IMG/VR virus record: IMGVR_UViG_3300042345_000282
Coordinates: 36,328-100,327 of that record
Strand: one strand, 5' to 3'
Length of the DNA stretch: 64,000 nucleotides
From: a virus
The position numbers and the translations under genes were made by a program. This document shows, one piece after another, positions 3,790 to 26,415 of this stretch. The notes beneath the pieces are model-generated. The model worked only from the letters and a program-made list of their open reading frames with translations, made no database searches and was not told the DNA's origin. Position 1 is the stretch's first letter. The number at the start of each line of letters is the position of its first letter.

Positions 3790-4065
3790 CTATTTATAGA
3801 CGTTTTTAAACTTTTCGGGCCGTTTCGGATCAGGTAAATAGTCTTTGTAAGGTATAGGACTATTGTCTTTACGTATGTGATCCCAACTCTTCATATCATC
3901 TCCGTATTTGATCATGAGATAACTCTGCGCTTCTTCCGGAACAGTATGGCTGATCAATAATAGATAATATTTCCATCGAATACGTTGTCTAAAATACTTT
4001 TTGATAGTATTGTCATTCAATATATCTTCAAATTTGTTATCTTCTCTGTAAAATAGATAATTCAT
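3790..4065 (-). CDS. Conserved-type phage protein of unknown function
   Basis: 91 aa. I chose the ATG at 4065, which overlaps the upstream stop as ATGA; a GTG at 4074 is also open. The protein is rich in Tyr, Lys and Asp (KKYFRQRIRWKYYLLLI; KDYLPDPKRPEKFKNVYK), has no membrane segment, and is not recognised. It lies in the run from dCMP deaminase toward the HAD nucleotidase. Confidence 0.55.
   Translation of the reverse strand: MNYLFYREDNKFEDILNDNTIKKYFRQRIRWKYYLLLISHTVPEEAQSYLMIKYGDDMKSWDHIRKDNSPIPYKDYLPDPKRPEKFKNVYK
3791..3798 (-). promoter_or_regulatory. T4-type late promoter, ATG at predicted +1
   Basis: Exact TATAAATA, then five bases, then the ATG of the HAD nucleotidase gene. In T4, late transcripts start about six bases past this box, so the message would be leaderless. 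Confidence 0.65.
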
Positions 4066-20762: not shown

Positions 20763-21074
20763 TTATTTCTCTGCTTCAACTTTGACTTGCAATGGATAGC
20801 CCTGTGATCTGGCTTCCAGGGTTACTTCAATACCTTTTTGTTCTGCAATCTCATAAGGAAGCACAGCAACTACTGCGCTACCGTTATCATGAATATCTTT
20901 TGTGATAGTAGTGGCAGTATCTGGATTATAATTGAAATATTCAATCAATGAACCAACAACAAATTCCATAGTAGTAACTTCATCATTCATATAGATGATT
21001 TTATACATAGGTGGTTCTTGTAGTGCGTGATTGACTTTGATATGTTGTTTTGTTTCTGGATGTGCGTTTGCCAT
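20763..21074 (-). CDS. clpS: ClpS protease adaptor
   Basis: 103 aa from ATG at 21074 (AAAGGA site). PMYKIIYMNDEVTTMEFVVG and TATTITKDIHDNGSAVVAVL match the ClpS core, with the N-degron pocket NDEVTTMEFV. An N-terminal flexible arm precedes it. In bacteria ClpS works with ClpA on N-end rule substrates; here only ClpX is visible in the window, so partner choice is open. Downstream of hsp20, separated by a strong hairpin. Confidence 0.88.
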   Translation of the reverse strand: MANAHPETKQHIKVNHALQEPPMYKIIYMNDEVTTMEFVVGSLIEYFNYNPDTATTITKDIHDNGSAVVAVLPYEIAEQKGIEVTLEARSQGYPLQVKVEAEK

Positions 21075-21095
21075 TACTTTGTTTCCTTTGTTAAA

Positions 21096-21123
21096 GTGTT
21101 CGCAGCCTGATGACTGCGAACAC
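21096..21123 (-). terminator. Strong hairpin between hsp20 and clpS
   Basis: Perfect 10-bp stem GTGTTCGCAG/CTGCGAACAC with an 8-base loop. Followed by TTTAACAAAG, so only a short T run; may be a weak terminator or attenuator that lowers clpS expression. Confidence 0.6.
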
Positions 21124-21137
21124 ATGCTACTACTATA

Positions 21138-21584
21138 TTATTTATTGTAGGAAATTGCAATCTTCTTGGGTTGCAACTCGTCAGGTACTTGACGTTCAAG
21201 GGTGATTCCCATGATACCATTGTTAACAACGGCGTCAGATACTTCTACATGGTCGGCGAGAGTAAAAGTGCGGGTAAAATTACGGGCACTGATACCACGA
21301 TATAGATACTCAACATTACTGTCAAGATCCACGCTCTGGCTACCCTCAATAGTAAGTAGGTTCTTATCCACAGTCACGTTGATATCCCCTTCCTTGAAAC
21401 CAGCAACGGCCAATTCGATAACAAACTTGTTGTCGCTATGTTTCACAATATTATATGGGGGATAGTTTGTGTCTTTTTGCTGATTGGATAGTCTTAGAAT
21501 TTCATCAAAGACTCCATCAAATCCGACTGCAAACTTGTGAATCGACGGAATGTCGAAGGAACGTAGTGTTAATGTATTTGTCAT
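21138..21584 (-). CDS. hsp20: Hsp20 / small heat-shock protein
   Basis: 148 aa. Alpha-crystallin domain, residues about 40-135 (FVIELAVAGFKEGDINVTVD, RGISARNFTRTFTLADHVEV, GIMGITLERQVPDE). N-terminus FDIPSIHKFAVGFDGVFDEI is IbpA-like. An ATP-independent holdase; such proteins are known from cyanophages. Late promoter with 5'-terminal hairpin upstream. Confidence 0.9.
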   Translation of the reverse strand: MTNTLTLRSFDIPSIHKFAVGFDGVFDEILRLSNQQKDTNYPPYNIVKHSDNKFVIELAVAGFKEGDINVTVDKNLLTIEGSQSVDLDSNVEYLYRGISARNFTRTFTLADHVEVSDAVVNNGIMGITLERQVPDELQPKKIAISYNK

Positions 21585-21690: not shown

Positions 21691-21912
21691 TTAAAACTTA
21701 GACTTAGGGAGATTTTGTTGGTCTATTTGTTTTTTCCAACGTCTTTTGGCTAATTCTCTAGCGAGTTTCTTTTTGACGCTAGGTTTAGTATATGTCTCTC
21801 TATCTTTAAGTTCTAATAGTAAGCCGGACTCCTGCACCTTTTTCTTTAGTTTTCTTAGTGCTTTTTCTACGTTTCCGTCTTTGACTATTACTTTTCTACC
21901 GTATAAATTCAT
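21691..21912 (-). CDS. rpsU: Ribosomal protein bS21
   Basis: 73 aa. Residues 8-45 (IVKDGNVEKALRKLKKKVQE; SGLLLELKDRETYTKPS) and the basic C-terminus (KKKLARELAKRRWKKQ) match bS21. bS21 is the last, exchangeable small-subunit protein near the mRNA exit, and phage copies are known in pelagiphages and other aquatic phages. It might bias initiation to phage messages. ATGA overlap with clpX upstream. Confidence 0.85.
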   Translation of the reverse strand: MNLYGRKVIVKDGNVEKALRKLKKKVQESGLLLELKDRETYTKPSVKKKLARELAKRRWKKQIDQQNLPKSKF

Positions 21913-23126
21913 ATTAATGTCTCAGGATTTTTCACAAGGTCCTGAATAATATTTATCTCCGCAACGTCACTTTCCTTGTATCTGCTGATGTTAAACATGT
22001 GGGGCATGAGTACTCGTTCTAGTTCGCTTTGTATGCCCCTAGCACCGGTTTTTAACTTAAGACAGTTATCAGCCATCTGTTCTATAGCACCCTTGCTAAA
22101 TTTGAGTTTGATCTTGTCGATGCTGAATAGATATGTATATTGATCAATTAGATTGTTTTTGACCTTGGTCATGACTTCGACTAACTGTTTCTTATCTAAA
22201 TCCTCTACAGATATAGAAGTAGCGAATCTACCAACAAATTCAGGTATCAAACCAAATCGTGTCAAGTCGTCCGGACTTACTCTATCTAAGAAACTTTCAT
22301 CAGTATTTGGCTTTACTTCAGCATTGAAGCCTATGCTGGTTCCCTTGATGCGAGACTTGACGATATCGTTCAATCCTACAAACGCACCGCCCGCTATGAA
22401 CAATATGTTCCTAGTATCAATCATATCCATCTTGCCGTCAGGGTGCTTTCTCCCGCCATTAGCAGGAATACGACAACGTGTTCCTTCTATCAGTTTCAGT
22501 AGTGCTTGCTGAACGCCCTCACCACTAACGTCACGGGTGATACTAGTGCTTTCGCTTTTACGTGCGATCTTGTCAATCTCATCGATGAATATGATTCCAC
22601 GTTCGGCTAGTTGTATATCTCCACCGGCTTCTTGTAATAACATAGCGATCATGCTTTCGACATCATCACCTACGTAGCCCGCTTCAGTTAAACTTGTAGC
22701 ATCGGCTATGACAAAAGGAACACGCAAAAACTTAGCGGCTGTCTTAGCCAATAAGGTTTTACCGGAACCAGTAGGACCTAGCAACAATACATTACCTTTT
22801 TGAATCTCAAGATTATCCGGCGGATGCATGATACGCTTATAATGATTAGCGATAGCGACAGACAAGGTAACTTTAGCGTTATGTTGCCCGACTACATGCC
22901 CATTTAAGTGATCATAAATGTTTAGGGCATCTACATCTCTTAACGCCTCTAACATCTGATGTTGTTTCTCATCATCAGGCTTTATGTCTTTACTAACAAG
23001 ATCGTGGCATAGATACGTGCAATAATCACATATTGCTACCTCACCGGACACAATTAATTTTTTTCTTTTATCCTTATGGGTACCACAAAAAGAACAGGTT
23101 TCTAAATGTTTTTCTTCATCACTCAT
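21909..23126 (-). CDS. clpX: ClpX ATPase
   Basis: 405 aa, nearly full length. N-terminal zinc domain CSFCGTHKDKRKKLIVSG and ICDYCTYLC; Walker A GPTGSGKTLLAKT; pore loop AGYVGDDVE; Walker B FIDEIDKIARKS; RKH-like loop NGGRKHPDG; ClpP-docking GTSIGFNAEVK; sensor LIPEFVGRF. All functional parts present. A phage copy could steer degradation with phage or host ClpP. Heads clpX-rpsU coupling. Confidence 0.92.
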   Translation of the reverse strand: MSDEEKHLETCSFCGTHKDKRKKLIVSGEVAICDYCTYLCHDLVSKDIKPDDEKQHQMLEALRDVDALNIYDHLNGHVVGQHNAKVTLSVAIANHYKRIMHPPDNLEIQKGNVLLLGPTGSGKTLLAKTAAKFLRVPFVIADATSLTEAGYVGDDVESMIAMLLQEAGGDIQLAERGIIFIDEIDKIARKSESTSITRDVSGEGVQQALLKLIEGTRCRIPANGGRKHPDGKMDMIDTRNILFIAGGAFVGLNDIVKSRIKGTSIGFNAEVKPNTDESFLDRVSPDDLTRFGLIPEFVGRFATSISVEDLDKKQLVEVMTKVKNNLIDQYTYLFSIDKIKLKFSKGAIEQMADNCLKLKTGARGIQSELERVLMPHMFNISRYKESDVAEINIIQDLVKNPETLI

Positions 23127-23155: not shown

Positions 23156-24103
23156 TTATAATTTGCAATCACGTGCCGCAACAACATCTACGTATATATC
23201 ATATATGACATCTGCAGGTACTGTCAGTTTAATGCGCATGGTTCCTGCATTGCGGTCATTGCCGAATACAGTTAATCGATTATTTACGCCTATGCTGTAG
23301 AATATGCCGCCTGCTCGGTACTCAGGATTATAACAGATATTCAATACTTGTCTGCCGCGATCATCTCTAGCCTTTACCTTCAGACGCAGTTCGTTTTGGT
23401 TTACAAACTTGCTTTTTAGATAATCAAGTCTATGTAAATCATCGATGAAATATTTATTGTGCTTACCTAACAATAAATCATTAGGATTTTTAGCAGAAAC
23501 ATTGATCACCCCACGGCCTATAGGAGTCTCTATCTCAGAGAATATCTCATTCATCGATGTGACAAAATTGTAATTCCATCTGATATCATAGGGTACCATC
23601 AGATAGAAGTTTCTATATGAATCTGTTGTAAAGTATGGATTTTTAGTTTGTTGCAAATTATAGGCACGATAAGGATAATCGCGAAATACTTCATCAATTA
23701 ATCTATCGCCTTTCTGCTGTTCATGGCGAATAGTATGTACTTGTGCATTGACGATATTACTGTCAAATTGATTTTTAGAATTAGATTTGCTGAACAATCT
23801 TTCGGATGTTTTGTTATTGGTCACCGTCACATTGATCTTTATTTGAGTACCAATATCCTCTAGTATCTCGTATTTCTCTACACGACAACTACTGTATGAG
23901 ATTACTTGATCATGAACCGTCTTTCCGTTGAAATGTTCACGGTCGCTTAACACGGCAGTACCGCATATATTTTCTATGGCAGTACGGAAAGCGTCCTTCT
24001 TGGCAGATTCGCGGTCGGCACCATAACCATATACAGTTATAGATTCAGCACCGACCGCGATTCCCGCAAATGATAGAAGGATCGCAGTAGCGATCTTCTT
24101 CAT
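23156..24103 (-). CDS. Secreted periplasmic protein, FlgT/LPP20-like N-domain
   Basis: 315 aa with Sec signal peptide MKKIATAILLSFAGIAVGAE. The first mature domain, SITVYGYGADRESAKKDAFR then IENICGTAVLSDRE and QIKINVTVT, resembles FlgT-N/LPP20-type envelope folds. The C-terminal half is beta-rich with few Cys. Start two bases after the lipoprotein stop (TAATATG). Function unknown; envelope role inferred. Confidence 0.6.
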   Translation of the reverse strand: MKKIATAILLSFAGIAVGAESITVYGYGADRESAKKDAFRTAIENICGTAVLSDREHFNGKTVHDQVISYSSCRVEKYEILEDIGTQIKINVTVTNNKTSERLFSKSNSKNQFDSNIVNAQVHTIRHEQQKGDRLIDEVFRDYPYRAYNLQQTKNPYFTTDSYRNFYLMVPYDIRWNYNFVTSMNEIFSEIETPIGRGVINVSAKNPNDLLLGKHNKYFIDDLHRLDYLKSKFVNQNELRLKVKARDDRGRQVLNICYNPEYRAGGIFYSIGVNNRLTVFGNDRNAGTMRIKLTVPADVIYDIYVDVVAARDCKL

Positions 24104-24104
24104 A

Positions 24105-24743
24105 TTAGCCGCCAGCAATCAAGCCACGTACTTGTCGAATGTCATTACTATCATACTTGTTCCAATTGATAGTACATGCCACAGTCTTGGGATCTACAAG
24201 ATTAGTCTTACTGATCGCAAAACCTACAAGACGACCTTGAGCATTAACAGTAACAGTTCTGACGATATCAATGTCAGTGTTGATCAATGCTTCGCGGACG
24301 CTATAGTTGGTATCCTTGTTAGGATCATCGGGACTCATAGAAACATCAGGTCCGATCTCAGTTTGGCTCTTGAATCTATCCTTCTGATTCTCGTTCTGGT
24401 TGTTCTTAGTAATAGTACGGCGATTTTCGGAAACGTTCATACCAAACACATAAGCGACTACGTTAGCACGGGCATTATCACACGCCATACTAGTCGTAGA
24501 CTTCTGAAGCAATCGGGTAGCACCAACACTAGGTTGCACACCTACAGCCTGAATGCCGATCACTTCGCACTGTTTGCTATTCCATAGCCACCCGCACTTC
24601 TTATCAATCTTGATAGTCTCGCCGGGAACGTTTGTTGCGAAAGTTTGAGATTCGATTGTGGGAATCTCGCCCTTCTTAGGACCATTACTAGAACAACCAG
24701 CAATAGCCAATGCAACACCTGCAACAATTAAACTAGACTTCAT
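24105..24743 (-). CDS. Lipoprotein of unknown function
   Basis: 212 aa from ATG at 24743 (GGAG nine bases upstream; an ATG at 24758 is alternative). Lipobox AIAGC follows a hydrophobic signal. The mature part has several Cys (KKCGWLWNSKQCEVIG; SMACDNARA; TVACTINW) and an LPP20-like flavour. A host-type promoter lies upstream. With the next gene it forms an exported pair that may alter the host envelope. Confidence 0.6.
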   Translation of the reverse strand: MKSSLIVAGVALAIAGCSSNGPKKGEIPTIESQTFATNVPGETIKIDKKCGWLWNSKQCEVIGIQAVGVQPSVGATRLLQKSTTSMACDNARANVVAYVFGMNVSENRRTITKNNQNENQKDRFKSQTEIGPDVSMSPDDPNKDTNYSVREALINTDIDIVRTVTVNAQGRLVGFAISKTNLVDPKTVACTINWNKYDSNDIRQVRGLIAGG

Positions 24744-24777
24744 AAACGTTTTCTCCATAGTTGTGAAACGTATAATG

Positions 24778-24806
24778 ATTATAGAATAGTCTACTGTTTA
24801 GGTCAA
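24778..24806 (-). promoter_or_regulatory. Sigma70-like promoter for the lipoprotein pair
   Basis: TTGACC, 17 bases, TATAAT. Confidence 0.7.
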
Positions 24807-25432
24807 GTGTTTTGGTTACCTTTTAGATGTGCTTCTATCTCAGCCTTTTCGTCATCGCTGAATACATCCAAATCGTATTCGCCCGAATTCAATTTCTCAA
24901 TCAAAAACTCAATGTACTCCTTGTTGTACATATAACTTTGGCTAGTGTTCTTATTTTGCTCTAACCATTTTTTACCGTCAAACTTGAATACACGATTTGG
25001 TAACACATCTACGCGAACGAATATATCACCTTTCGCGGCTATTTTGGGAAACTGTGTTCCAAATCCTGTACTCTTTTGAGCACCTAAATCTGCTTTGGCA
25101 GAGAATAAATCCGGACGCAATTCTTTCAGTGCGTTGCTCTGATATAAAGAACTATTGAATTCTACGTAGCCGTTACCTACATCCTTTAAAGGGGTAACAC
25201 CCTCAGTTATTATTTCTTTGGGGGCAACAACTTCTTGAACAGATTTAATATCGGGCTTCGGCTCCAGTTTGTTAGGTTCTTCCAACTTAACTTTTCTTTT
25301 ACGTTTAGTTGGCTTAGGCTGGAACGTAACTTGCTTGAGAGGTTTGACGGGCTTAGTGACTTTATTTGGTCTAATCTTGGCAACTTTAAGTTTAGGTTGC
25401 TCAACTTTAGCCTTTCGCTTAACTTTTTTTTT
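24803..25432 (-). CDS. C-terminal extension of the membrane protein, reached by -1 frameshift
   Basis: About 209 codons open in the -1 frame beyond the A_AAA_AAG site. It begins with a long Lys/Pro-rich linker (KVKRKAKVEQPKLKVAKIRP) and ends in a soluble domain (AAKGDIFVRVDVLPNRVFKF, DGKKWLEQNKNT). There is no ATG or ribosome-binding site near its front; the only start inside would be TTG at 25285. It is therefore best read as part of a fusion with the upstream gene. Confidence 0.65.
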   Translation of the reverse strand, partial: KKKVKRKAKVEQPKLKVAKIRPNKVTKPVKPLKQVTFQPKPTKRKRKVKLEEPNKLEPKPDIKSVQEVVAPKEIITEGVTPLKDVGNGYVEFNSSLYQSNALKELRPDLFSAKADLGAQKSTGFGTQFPKIAAKGDIFVRVDVLPNRVFKFDGKKWLEQNKNTSQSYMYNKEYIEFLIEKLNSGEYDLDVFSDDEKAEIEAHLKGNQNT

Positions 25433-26415
25433 ACAGGACTATCCTGCTTTACTTCTTCTTTAACTAAGCCGCCGTCGGCAGTGAGTTCTGCATCCCCTGC
25501 TTTTGGCTCAATAGGCTCGCTTGTTTGTTCTTTTTCTTCAGGGGTTAATGGTAGATATCCTGCTGTGGTGGCCGGAACAAACTCTTCCTTCTTTTCAAAT
25601 TCCCATTTATAACTACTGATTGCGGCGATCACAAGCATCAATGCTAATGGGTCAAATACAAAAATCAATAGTATGATTACCCAACGGACGGCCTTTTCTA
25701 ACAACGCATTGTCTGGGTTGTCACCATATATCAATGCCGCGATATATTTTATAGGACCTACTTCTGCTTCAATCTTACGAAACTGAGTGGCTAACGGAGC
25801 CTTTTCTAAACTCAATGCCTGTATAGTCTGATTTGATTTTTCTATACGGGACTGTGCATCATCAATCTCTTTTGTATATGCCTGTCTATCTCTACGCTGT
25901 GCGGCTCTTATCTGTACGGATCTTTCTGCACTTGCCTCACTAGTGCCGCGATCCAGTCTTGCGGACACTTGAGCATCCATCTGTGATAATGCTCTGCGGG
26001 CAGATTCTATATTTTCGCGCTCACTGCTTATCAATTCACGCTGAATAGCGATCTTCTCATCGATTAAACTTATCTGAGCAGCCACATCGCCTGTAGGTAT
26101 ACCCTGATCCATATGGGCTTTGCTTAAGAAGCCGAATATGCCCATGCTTGTGACAAGTGCTAATACTGCTACAGCACCTGTCAAATATGTTTTCATCAAC
26201 CATCTACATCTTTCCCAATATCGGTGCAACCATATCGTTGTAACAATCTTGGCTACCTCGAGACTACCTCCCATGATGATCACGGGTATGACGGCGGCAG
26301 CGAATATAGCGGTCAAACCGACTACGCTATACCAGGCTGCTATGGCACTGAGCGTTAATGCTGTGATTAACGCTAATGTAGATAGGCTAAATACTTTCCT
26401 TATTAATAGTGGCAT
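25210..26415 (-). CDS. Large membrane protein with coiled coil (zero-frame product)
   Basis: 401 aa from ATG at 26415; a longer reading would cross the late promoter. Membrane spans near residues 5-50 (VFSLSTLALITALTLSAIAA; VIPVIIMGGSLEVAKIV), about 75-95 and about 230-260; a coiled coil (residues 105-200) lies between. This layout recurs in T4-like aquatic phage structural membrane proteins. The slippery site at 25423-25429 allows either this product, ending in a Lys/Ser/Leu-rich tail, or a 537-residue fusion. Confidence 0.65.
   Translation of the reverse strand: MPLLIRKVFSLSTLALITALTLSAIAAWYSVVGLTAIFAAAVIPVIIMGGSLEVAKIVTTIWLHRYWERCRWLMKTYLTGAVAVLALVTSMGIFGFLSKAHMDQGIPTGDVAAQISLIDEKIAIQRELISSERENIESARRALSQMDAQVSARLDRGTSEASAERSVQIRAAQRRDRQAYTKEIDDAQSRIEKSNQTIQALSLEKAPLATQFRKIEAEVGPIKYIAALIYGDNPDNALLEKAVRWVIILLIFVFDPLALMLVIAAISSYKWEFEKKEEFVPATTAGYLPLTPEEKEQTSEPIEPKAGDAELTADGGLVKEEVKQDSPVKKKLSERLKLSNLNLKLPRLDQIKSLSPSNLSSKLRSSLSQLNVKEKLSWKNLTNWSRSPILNLFKKLLPPKK
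25423..25429 (-). promoter_or_regulatory. Putative programmed -1 frameshift site A_AAA_AAG
   Basis: Run of nine A then G on the minus strand; in the zero frame it reads A_AAA_AAG, the dnaX slippery heptamer. A CAGGA/TCCTG inverted repeat with an AGGA lies 12 bases upstream. No clear downstream hairpin found. Confidence 0.6.

Follow-up and report, generated by a model that had tools for sequence, protein, structure and literature searches.

Does a phage membrane protein gene whose reading frame crosses nine consecutive adenines encode two programmed products, or is the frame break at this locus an error, or the border between two separate genes? The gene is located on the minus strand of the window, the stretch of 64 kb of viral DNA that was analysed here, and its features are listed in Table 1. 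The mRNA at the run reads CCT GTA AAA AAA AAG TTA and contains both A_AAA_AAA and A_AAA_AAG in frame, the latter being the slippery heptamer of dnaX with the frame-0 codons AAA AAG, as the original prediction had it. That prediction was also correct in that the -1 frame is open from the run onward and that this downstream frame lacks an ATG and a ribosome-binding site; before the soluble domain there is only a TTG at 25285, with no Shine-Dalgarno sequence. The AGGA-bearing inverted repeat is present upstream, with AGGA 12 nt before A_AAA_AAG. A slip at this heptamer should give a trans-frame product of 331 + 206 = 537 aa, and the two predicted sizes, 401 and 537 aa with a common membrane part, hold on the sequence. 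The dinucleotide content would predict about 6.5 runs of at least 8 A or T in the window, and the A9 is the only one. No tRNA genes that could bear on lysine decoding were found within the window, and the virus record, a contig of 100,327 bases, has no close relative by DNA among the phage records searched.

Recoding at the A9G run is close to certain on the comparative evidence given below, and very probably we are dealing with one gene and two programmed products. In part, decoding would stay in frame 0 and end at a conserved Lys/Leu/Trp tail (401 aa); in part it would shift to the -1 frame at A9G, and the protein would be extended by a Lys/Pro linker followed by the conserved soluble domain (537 aa). 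The occurrence of the shift, its level and its efficiency we infer from the sequences of the window and its relatives.

Table 1. Positions in the window of the membrane protein gene, its slip run and the associated elements.
Feature	Position	Strand	Remarks
Frame-0 ORF, 401 aa	25210-26415	-	ATG at 26415, stop at 25210
A9G slip run	25423-25432	-	T9 on the + strand at 25424-25432
6-bp hairpin GCAGGA-UAG-UCCUGU abutting A9	25433-25447	-	From folding; SD-like AGGA (5' arm) at 25442-25445
Predicted -1 extension after the slip (Lys/Pro/Arg-rich linker and soluble domain)	24803-25422	-	Would add about 206 aa
Frame-0 tail overlapping the -1 linker, dual-coding	25213-25422	-	70 aa after KKK
Conserved tail motif VKEKLSWKNLTNWSRSPIL	25246-25302	-	In 11/11 long-tailed loci aligned
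Conserved soluble domain GDxFVRVDxLPNRVxKFDGxKW	24812-25207	-	In-frame fusion in about 50 orthologues

Frameshifted and fused relatives

The frameshift set comprises 13 loci in IMG/VR including the window. It contains the closest relatives of the membrane part, two of its members (L007 and L009) are almost the same in sequence, and L107 was added by a motif scan. The membrane parts are 63–87% identical to that of the window, and in all 13 loci the soluble domain is found in the -1 frame with the A-run in the same phase. A9G is conserved in 12 of the 13, and A_AAA_AAG with the frame-0 codons AAA AAG in the window and 11 of the 12 others; the remaining locus, L074, has A8GG and only A_AAA_AAA. 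The coiled coil of L074 carries a second frame break, and this locus therefore gives weaker support. The break, at L074:2200-2280, resembles a short tandem duplication and is either an assembly artefact or real. The codon before the run varies (GTA, CTA, TTA and CCA, for Val, Leu or Pro) and always has A as its third base, so that the run stays at nine. Homopolymers can act as contingency loci (PMC3711429), and replication slippage that alters the run length would then switch the gene by phase variation, but the run length is constant across contigs, with A9G in 12 of 13 loci and L074 differing by an apparent substitution and not by an indel, and this explanation is extremely unlikely.

About 50 more distant orthologues in IMG/VR have both parts in a single fused frame and no in-phase A9G, indicating that the two halves belong to one protein. 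The site in the window is flanked by genes encoding proteins of 83 and 102 aa, a lipoprotein, a secreted protein of 320 aa, and ClpX. Genes homologous to these occur around fused and frameshifted forms alike, and the two forms are therefore taken as orthologous. The comparison with homologues, which the original prediction had named as a test, thus gave neither an indel nor two independent genes; it establishes the two-part architecture, the orthology to the fused genes and the conservation of the slip run, and yielded 12 further loci with the same -1 offset. Matches in the genome collection are scattered MAGs and a few isolates, none of them frameshifted with the soluble domain.

Two fused sisters, L088 and L160, have the downstream part in frame 0 and yet keep A9G in the same phase; the sequences at the run are PKKKLVKSKRK and PVKKKKVTKK respectively. 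A -1 slip in these two would truncate the protein, as a stop follows after only a few codons, and the two frames have thus exchanged roles relative to the frameshift loci. In a tree built on the membrane and soluble parts, which extends a first tree that excluded L160, the slip-run loci constitute one supported clade of 15 rows, 13 frameshifted and two fused (99/96). A single clade of all 13 frameshift rows is rejected (AU p 0.007), and a clade of the 12 rows without L012 is not rejected (p 0.41), which is compatible with one gain and a later re-fusion, or with two gains. Among other fused orthologues, L211 (at position 3884) and L212 contain A9G in a different phase, between AGGTT and AACCT, and the run would therefore sit in a hairpin loop. 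L155 has an in-phase A8C run in the linker (at position 3991) that is a possible slip site.

Selection on the two endings

The original prediction called the frame-0 tail unconvincing, which turned out to be wrong. The tail motif KxKLSWxxLTxWxxSPxL is present in all 11 aligned long-tailed loci with few departures; the tail of L012 is short, with 16 aa following KKK, and does not contain the motif. Within the motif, the diversity at frame-0 codon positions 1, 2 and 3 is 0.231, 0.136 and 0.367 (11 loci), the least variable being position 2, where frame -1 has its wobble base, and the most variable position 3. This periodicity (p 0.0014 in a paired Wilcoxon test that ignores kinship) indicates that the tail is constrained in frame 0, and that the overlap is dual-coding. 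When the frame-0 tail of the window is recoded synonymously, the -1 frame is still open in about 0.01% of the draws, and in ten other long-tailed relatives in at most about 1%. Past the overlap the -1 frame has an ordinary periodicity, with codon-position diversities of 0.293, 0.212 and 0.526. By comparison, both frames are thus under selection.

Since both endings are under selection in the relatives, the locus should indeed encode two products, and its frame break should not stem from a sequencing error. An error would mean that one A is missing from the run as sequenced and that the genome actually carries a single uninterrupted gene; homopolymer runs are prone to error and the distant orthologues are single frames, which would fit. 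However, the same offset is found in 13 loci on separate contigs with widely divergent sequences, and selection on the tail in frame 0 is unexpected for a sequence that is never translated. The 13-locus pattern and the selection on the tail refute an indel or assembly error, and we give it virtually no chance.

The locus might also consist of two genes, with the soluble domain made alone by internal initiation at the TTG at 25285, and relatives do have TTG or GTG at this position. The codon is however forced by a tryptophan in frame 0 and is not preceded by a Shine-Dalgarno sequence, the -1 frame is free of stops from the slip run to the TTG in all long-tailed loci with the linker conserved, and in the distant orthologues the soluble domain is fused to the membrane part. 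Internal initiation is thus very unlikely.

Level of the shift and the upstream hairpin

The programmed -1 frameshift of the original prediction is supported by the relatives, and its assignment to the ribosome at A_AAA_AAG is one of two possible levels. A -1 slip of the ribosome is the more likely of the two, and slippage of the RNA polymerase on A9 is a rival of lower but considerable probability; both may contribute. The ribosome would slip -1 on A_AAA_AAG, or on the tandem A_AAA_AAA / A_AAA_AAG, with help from the SD-like AGGA/AGGU that precedes the heptamer by 12 nt; this element is found in 11 of the 13 loci and absent from L012 and L074. In E. coli dnaX the same heptamer is highly shift-prone, with an SD 10 nt upstream (PMC5009743). 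With slippage of the polymerase on A9, helped by the abutting hairpin in the nascent RNA, mRNAs lengthened by one A (or shortened by two) would encode the long form by normal translation; this would alter the level of the recoding and leave the outcome of two products unchanged.

The hairpin, of 5–6 bp, adjoins A9 in 11 of the 13 frameshift loci, with L012 and L074 lacking it, and its AGG arm is invariant across the 11, which speaks for the ribosome. In the covariation analysis 95.8% of the cells are paired, and 5 of 500 shuffles score as high (8 distinct sequences). Two pairs are changed on both sides, one from C-G to G-C, seen once, and one from A-U to U-A, and these results support the hairpin as a structure. 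Synonymous recoding of the hairpin alone gave P values of 0.03–0.19 in the ten hairpin loci tested, which is suggestive. Downstream of the run, pseudoknot-free folding gave weak folds within 70 nt that are not shared between the loci, and L005 folds to none.

Bacterial RNA polymerase slips efficiently on nine A's, and in a Roseiflexus IS transcriptional slippage is driven by a stem-loop that immediately precedes the slip motif (PMC5009743). The position of the hairpin next to A9 is of the Roseiflexus type and its two pairs with changes on both sides, together with the retention of nine A's, despite the changes in the preceding codon, where A_AAA_AAG needs only six, speak for the polymerase. 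An upstream hairpin adjoining the slip site has also been reported to attenuate -1 shifting by the ribosome (PMC6321510). Against the polymerase, the shift is -1 in all 13 loci, and the two directions that would be a supporting, though not a defining, sign of transcriptional slippage are not seen; the same direction in orthologues is a sign of ribosomal shifting (Antonov et al., PMC3711429). Moreover, the run of L074 is only A8, and the Roseiflexus hairpin yields one-base deletions, which here would lead to an immediate stop in most loci (VKKS*). The G that follows the run is conserved, as A_AAA_AAG would require, and counts in the same direction, although the valine in frame -1 needs this G too.

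Domains, gene neighbourhood and known systems

The 401-aa ORF should encode N-terminal transmembrane helices, a long coiled coil, a further transmembrane helix, an acidic linker and the frame-0 tail; the helices were assigned by eye from the sequence and are of low confidence in the AF2 model (mean pLDDT of the membrane part 59). The membrane part has a DUF4407-like layout with scores below the Pfam cut-off: DUF4407 (PF14362) is matched in fused relatives with at best 24.6 bits, the cut-off being 31.3, and the window protein is not among the matches. Homologues in the isolates Pelagibacter phage Mosig, Flavobacterium phage immuto, Xanthomonas phage XacN1 and Mel-JY01 are 281–381 aa long and contain the membrane part only, which suggests that the short form is functional on its own.

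The soluble domain of about 130 aa is modelled by AF2 with a pLDDT of about 84 over residues 71–160, and from the topology it should face the cytoplasm. It shows weak matches to phrog_11591, a virion structural protein. In BFVD one phage protein of the fused length was found (547 aa, E 9e-14), along with weak matches to tail and structural proteins that have a small beta module in common. Sequence and fold searches of the PDB with the domain gave nothing below 1e-3, the domain of the window has no match in the phage record collection, and no paralogous copy that might name a partner is present within the window. The two forms may serve to set, in an envelope complex of the phage, the ratio between membrane subunits that carry the soluble domain and those that lack it.

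The CDS for the phage-encoded ClpX is located at 21909-23126 (minus strand) and has a zinc finger and an AAA domain; a ClpX-like gene is found near the membrane gene in many of the relatives examined. ORFs at 20763-21584 (minus strand), near ClpX, resemble ClpS and a small heat-shock protein by eye, and the three might possibly form a phage proteostasis cluster. The region 23156-24758 (minus strand) encodes a protein of 217 aa that has a lipoprotein-like signal and one of 320 aa that is probably secreted. Neither has a match in Pfam or PHROGs, and dozens of relatives have homologues of both next to the membrane gene, which hints at an envelope complex. No sign of a tape-measure gene adjoining the membrane gene was found.

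Conserved programmed frameshifts of phages are mostly known from tail-assembly and capsid or tail-extension genes. The setting here is an uncharacterised phage membrane gene with a dual-coded overlap and both endings selected. A joint reading, which we offer tentatively, is that of a phage recoding cassette with a new layout. A9G would be stimulated by a covarying hairpin abutting its 5' side, with no 3' stimulator, and the membrane protein would have two overlapping and separately selected C-terminal endings. Within one clade the gene would have moved between fused and frameshifted forms with the slip run kept and the frame roles swapped, long and short products persisting. The nearby fused relatives serve as natural controls, so that gain and loss of programmed frameshifting in a gene become directly testable, and A9 with its abutting 5' hairpin is a clean case for separating ribosomal from polymerase slippage. 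An ordinary annotation of such phages would overlook the soluble domain or list it as a gene of its own.

With E. coli dnaX (tau/gamma) the locus has in common the A_AAA_AAG in the same register, an SD-like element upstream, at 12 nt as compared to 10 nt in dnaX, and two products with a common N-terminal part. It differs in that the shift would extend the protein, that the run is A9 and not A6, that no conserved downstream stem-loop is present, and that the frame-0 ending is a conserved dual-coded motif; L088 and L160 are closer mirrors of dnaX, since a -1 slip there would truncate the product. The nine-base homopolymer is shared with dnaX of Thermus thermophilus and the stem-loop directly 5' of the slip motif with the Roseiflexus IS, both cases of transcriptional slippage, whereas here the hairpin is short and the direction is the same in all relatives. 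The homologues in Mosig, immuto and XacN1 and the DUF4407 proteins have the same membrane and coiled-coil part, those of the three phages being limited to it. As for gpG/gpGT of phage lambda, a -1 shift would add a domain to part of the molecules of one phage protein and so give two forms, but here the protein is a membrane protein, and in place of a tape-measure gene it has genes for a lipoprotein, a secreted protein and ClpX nearby.
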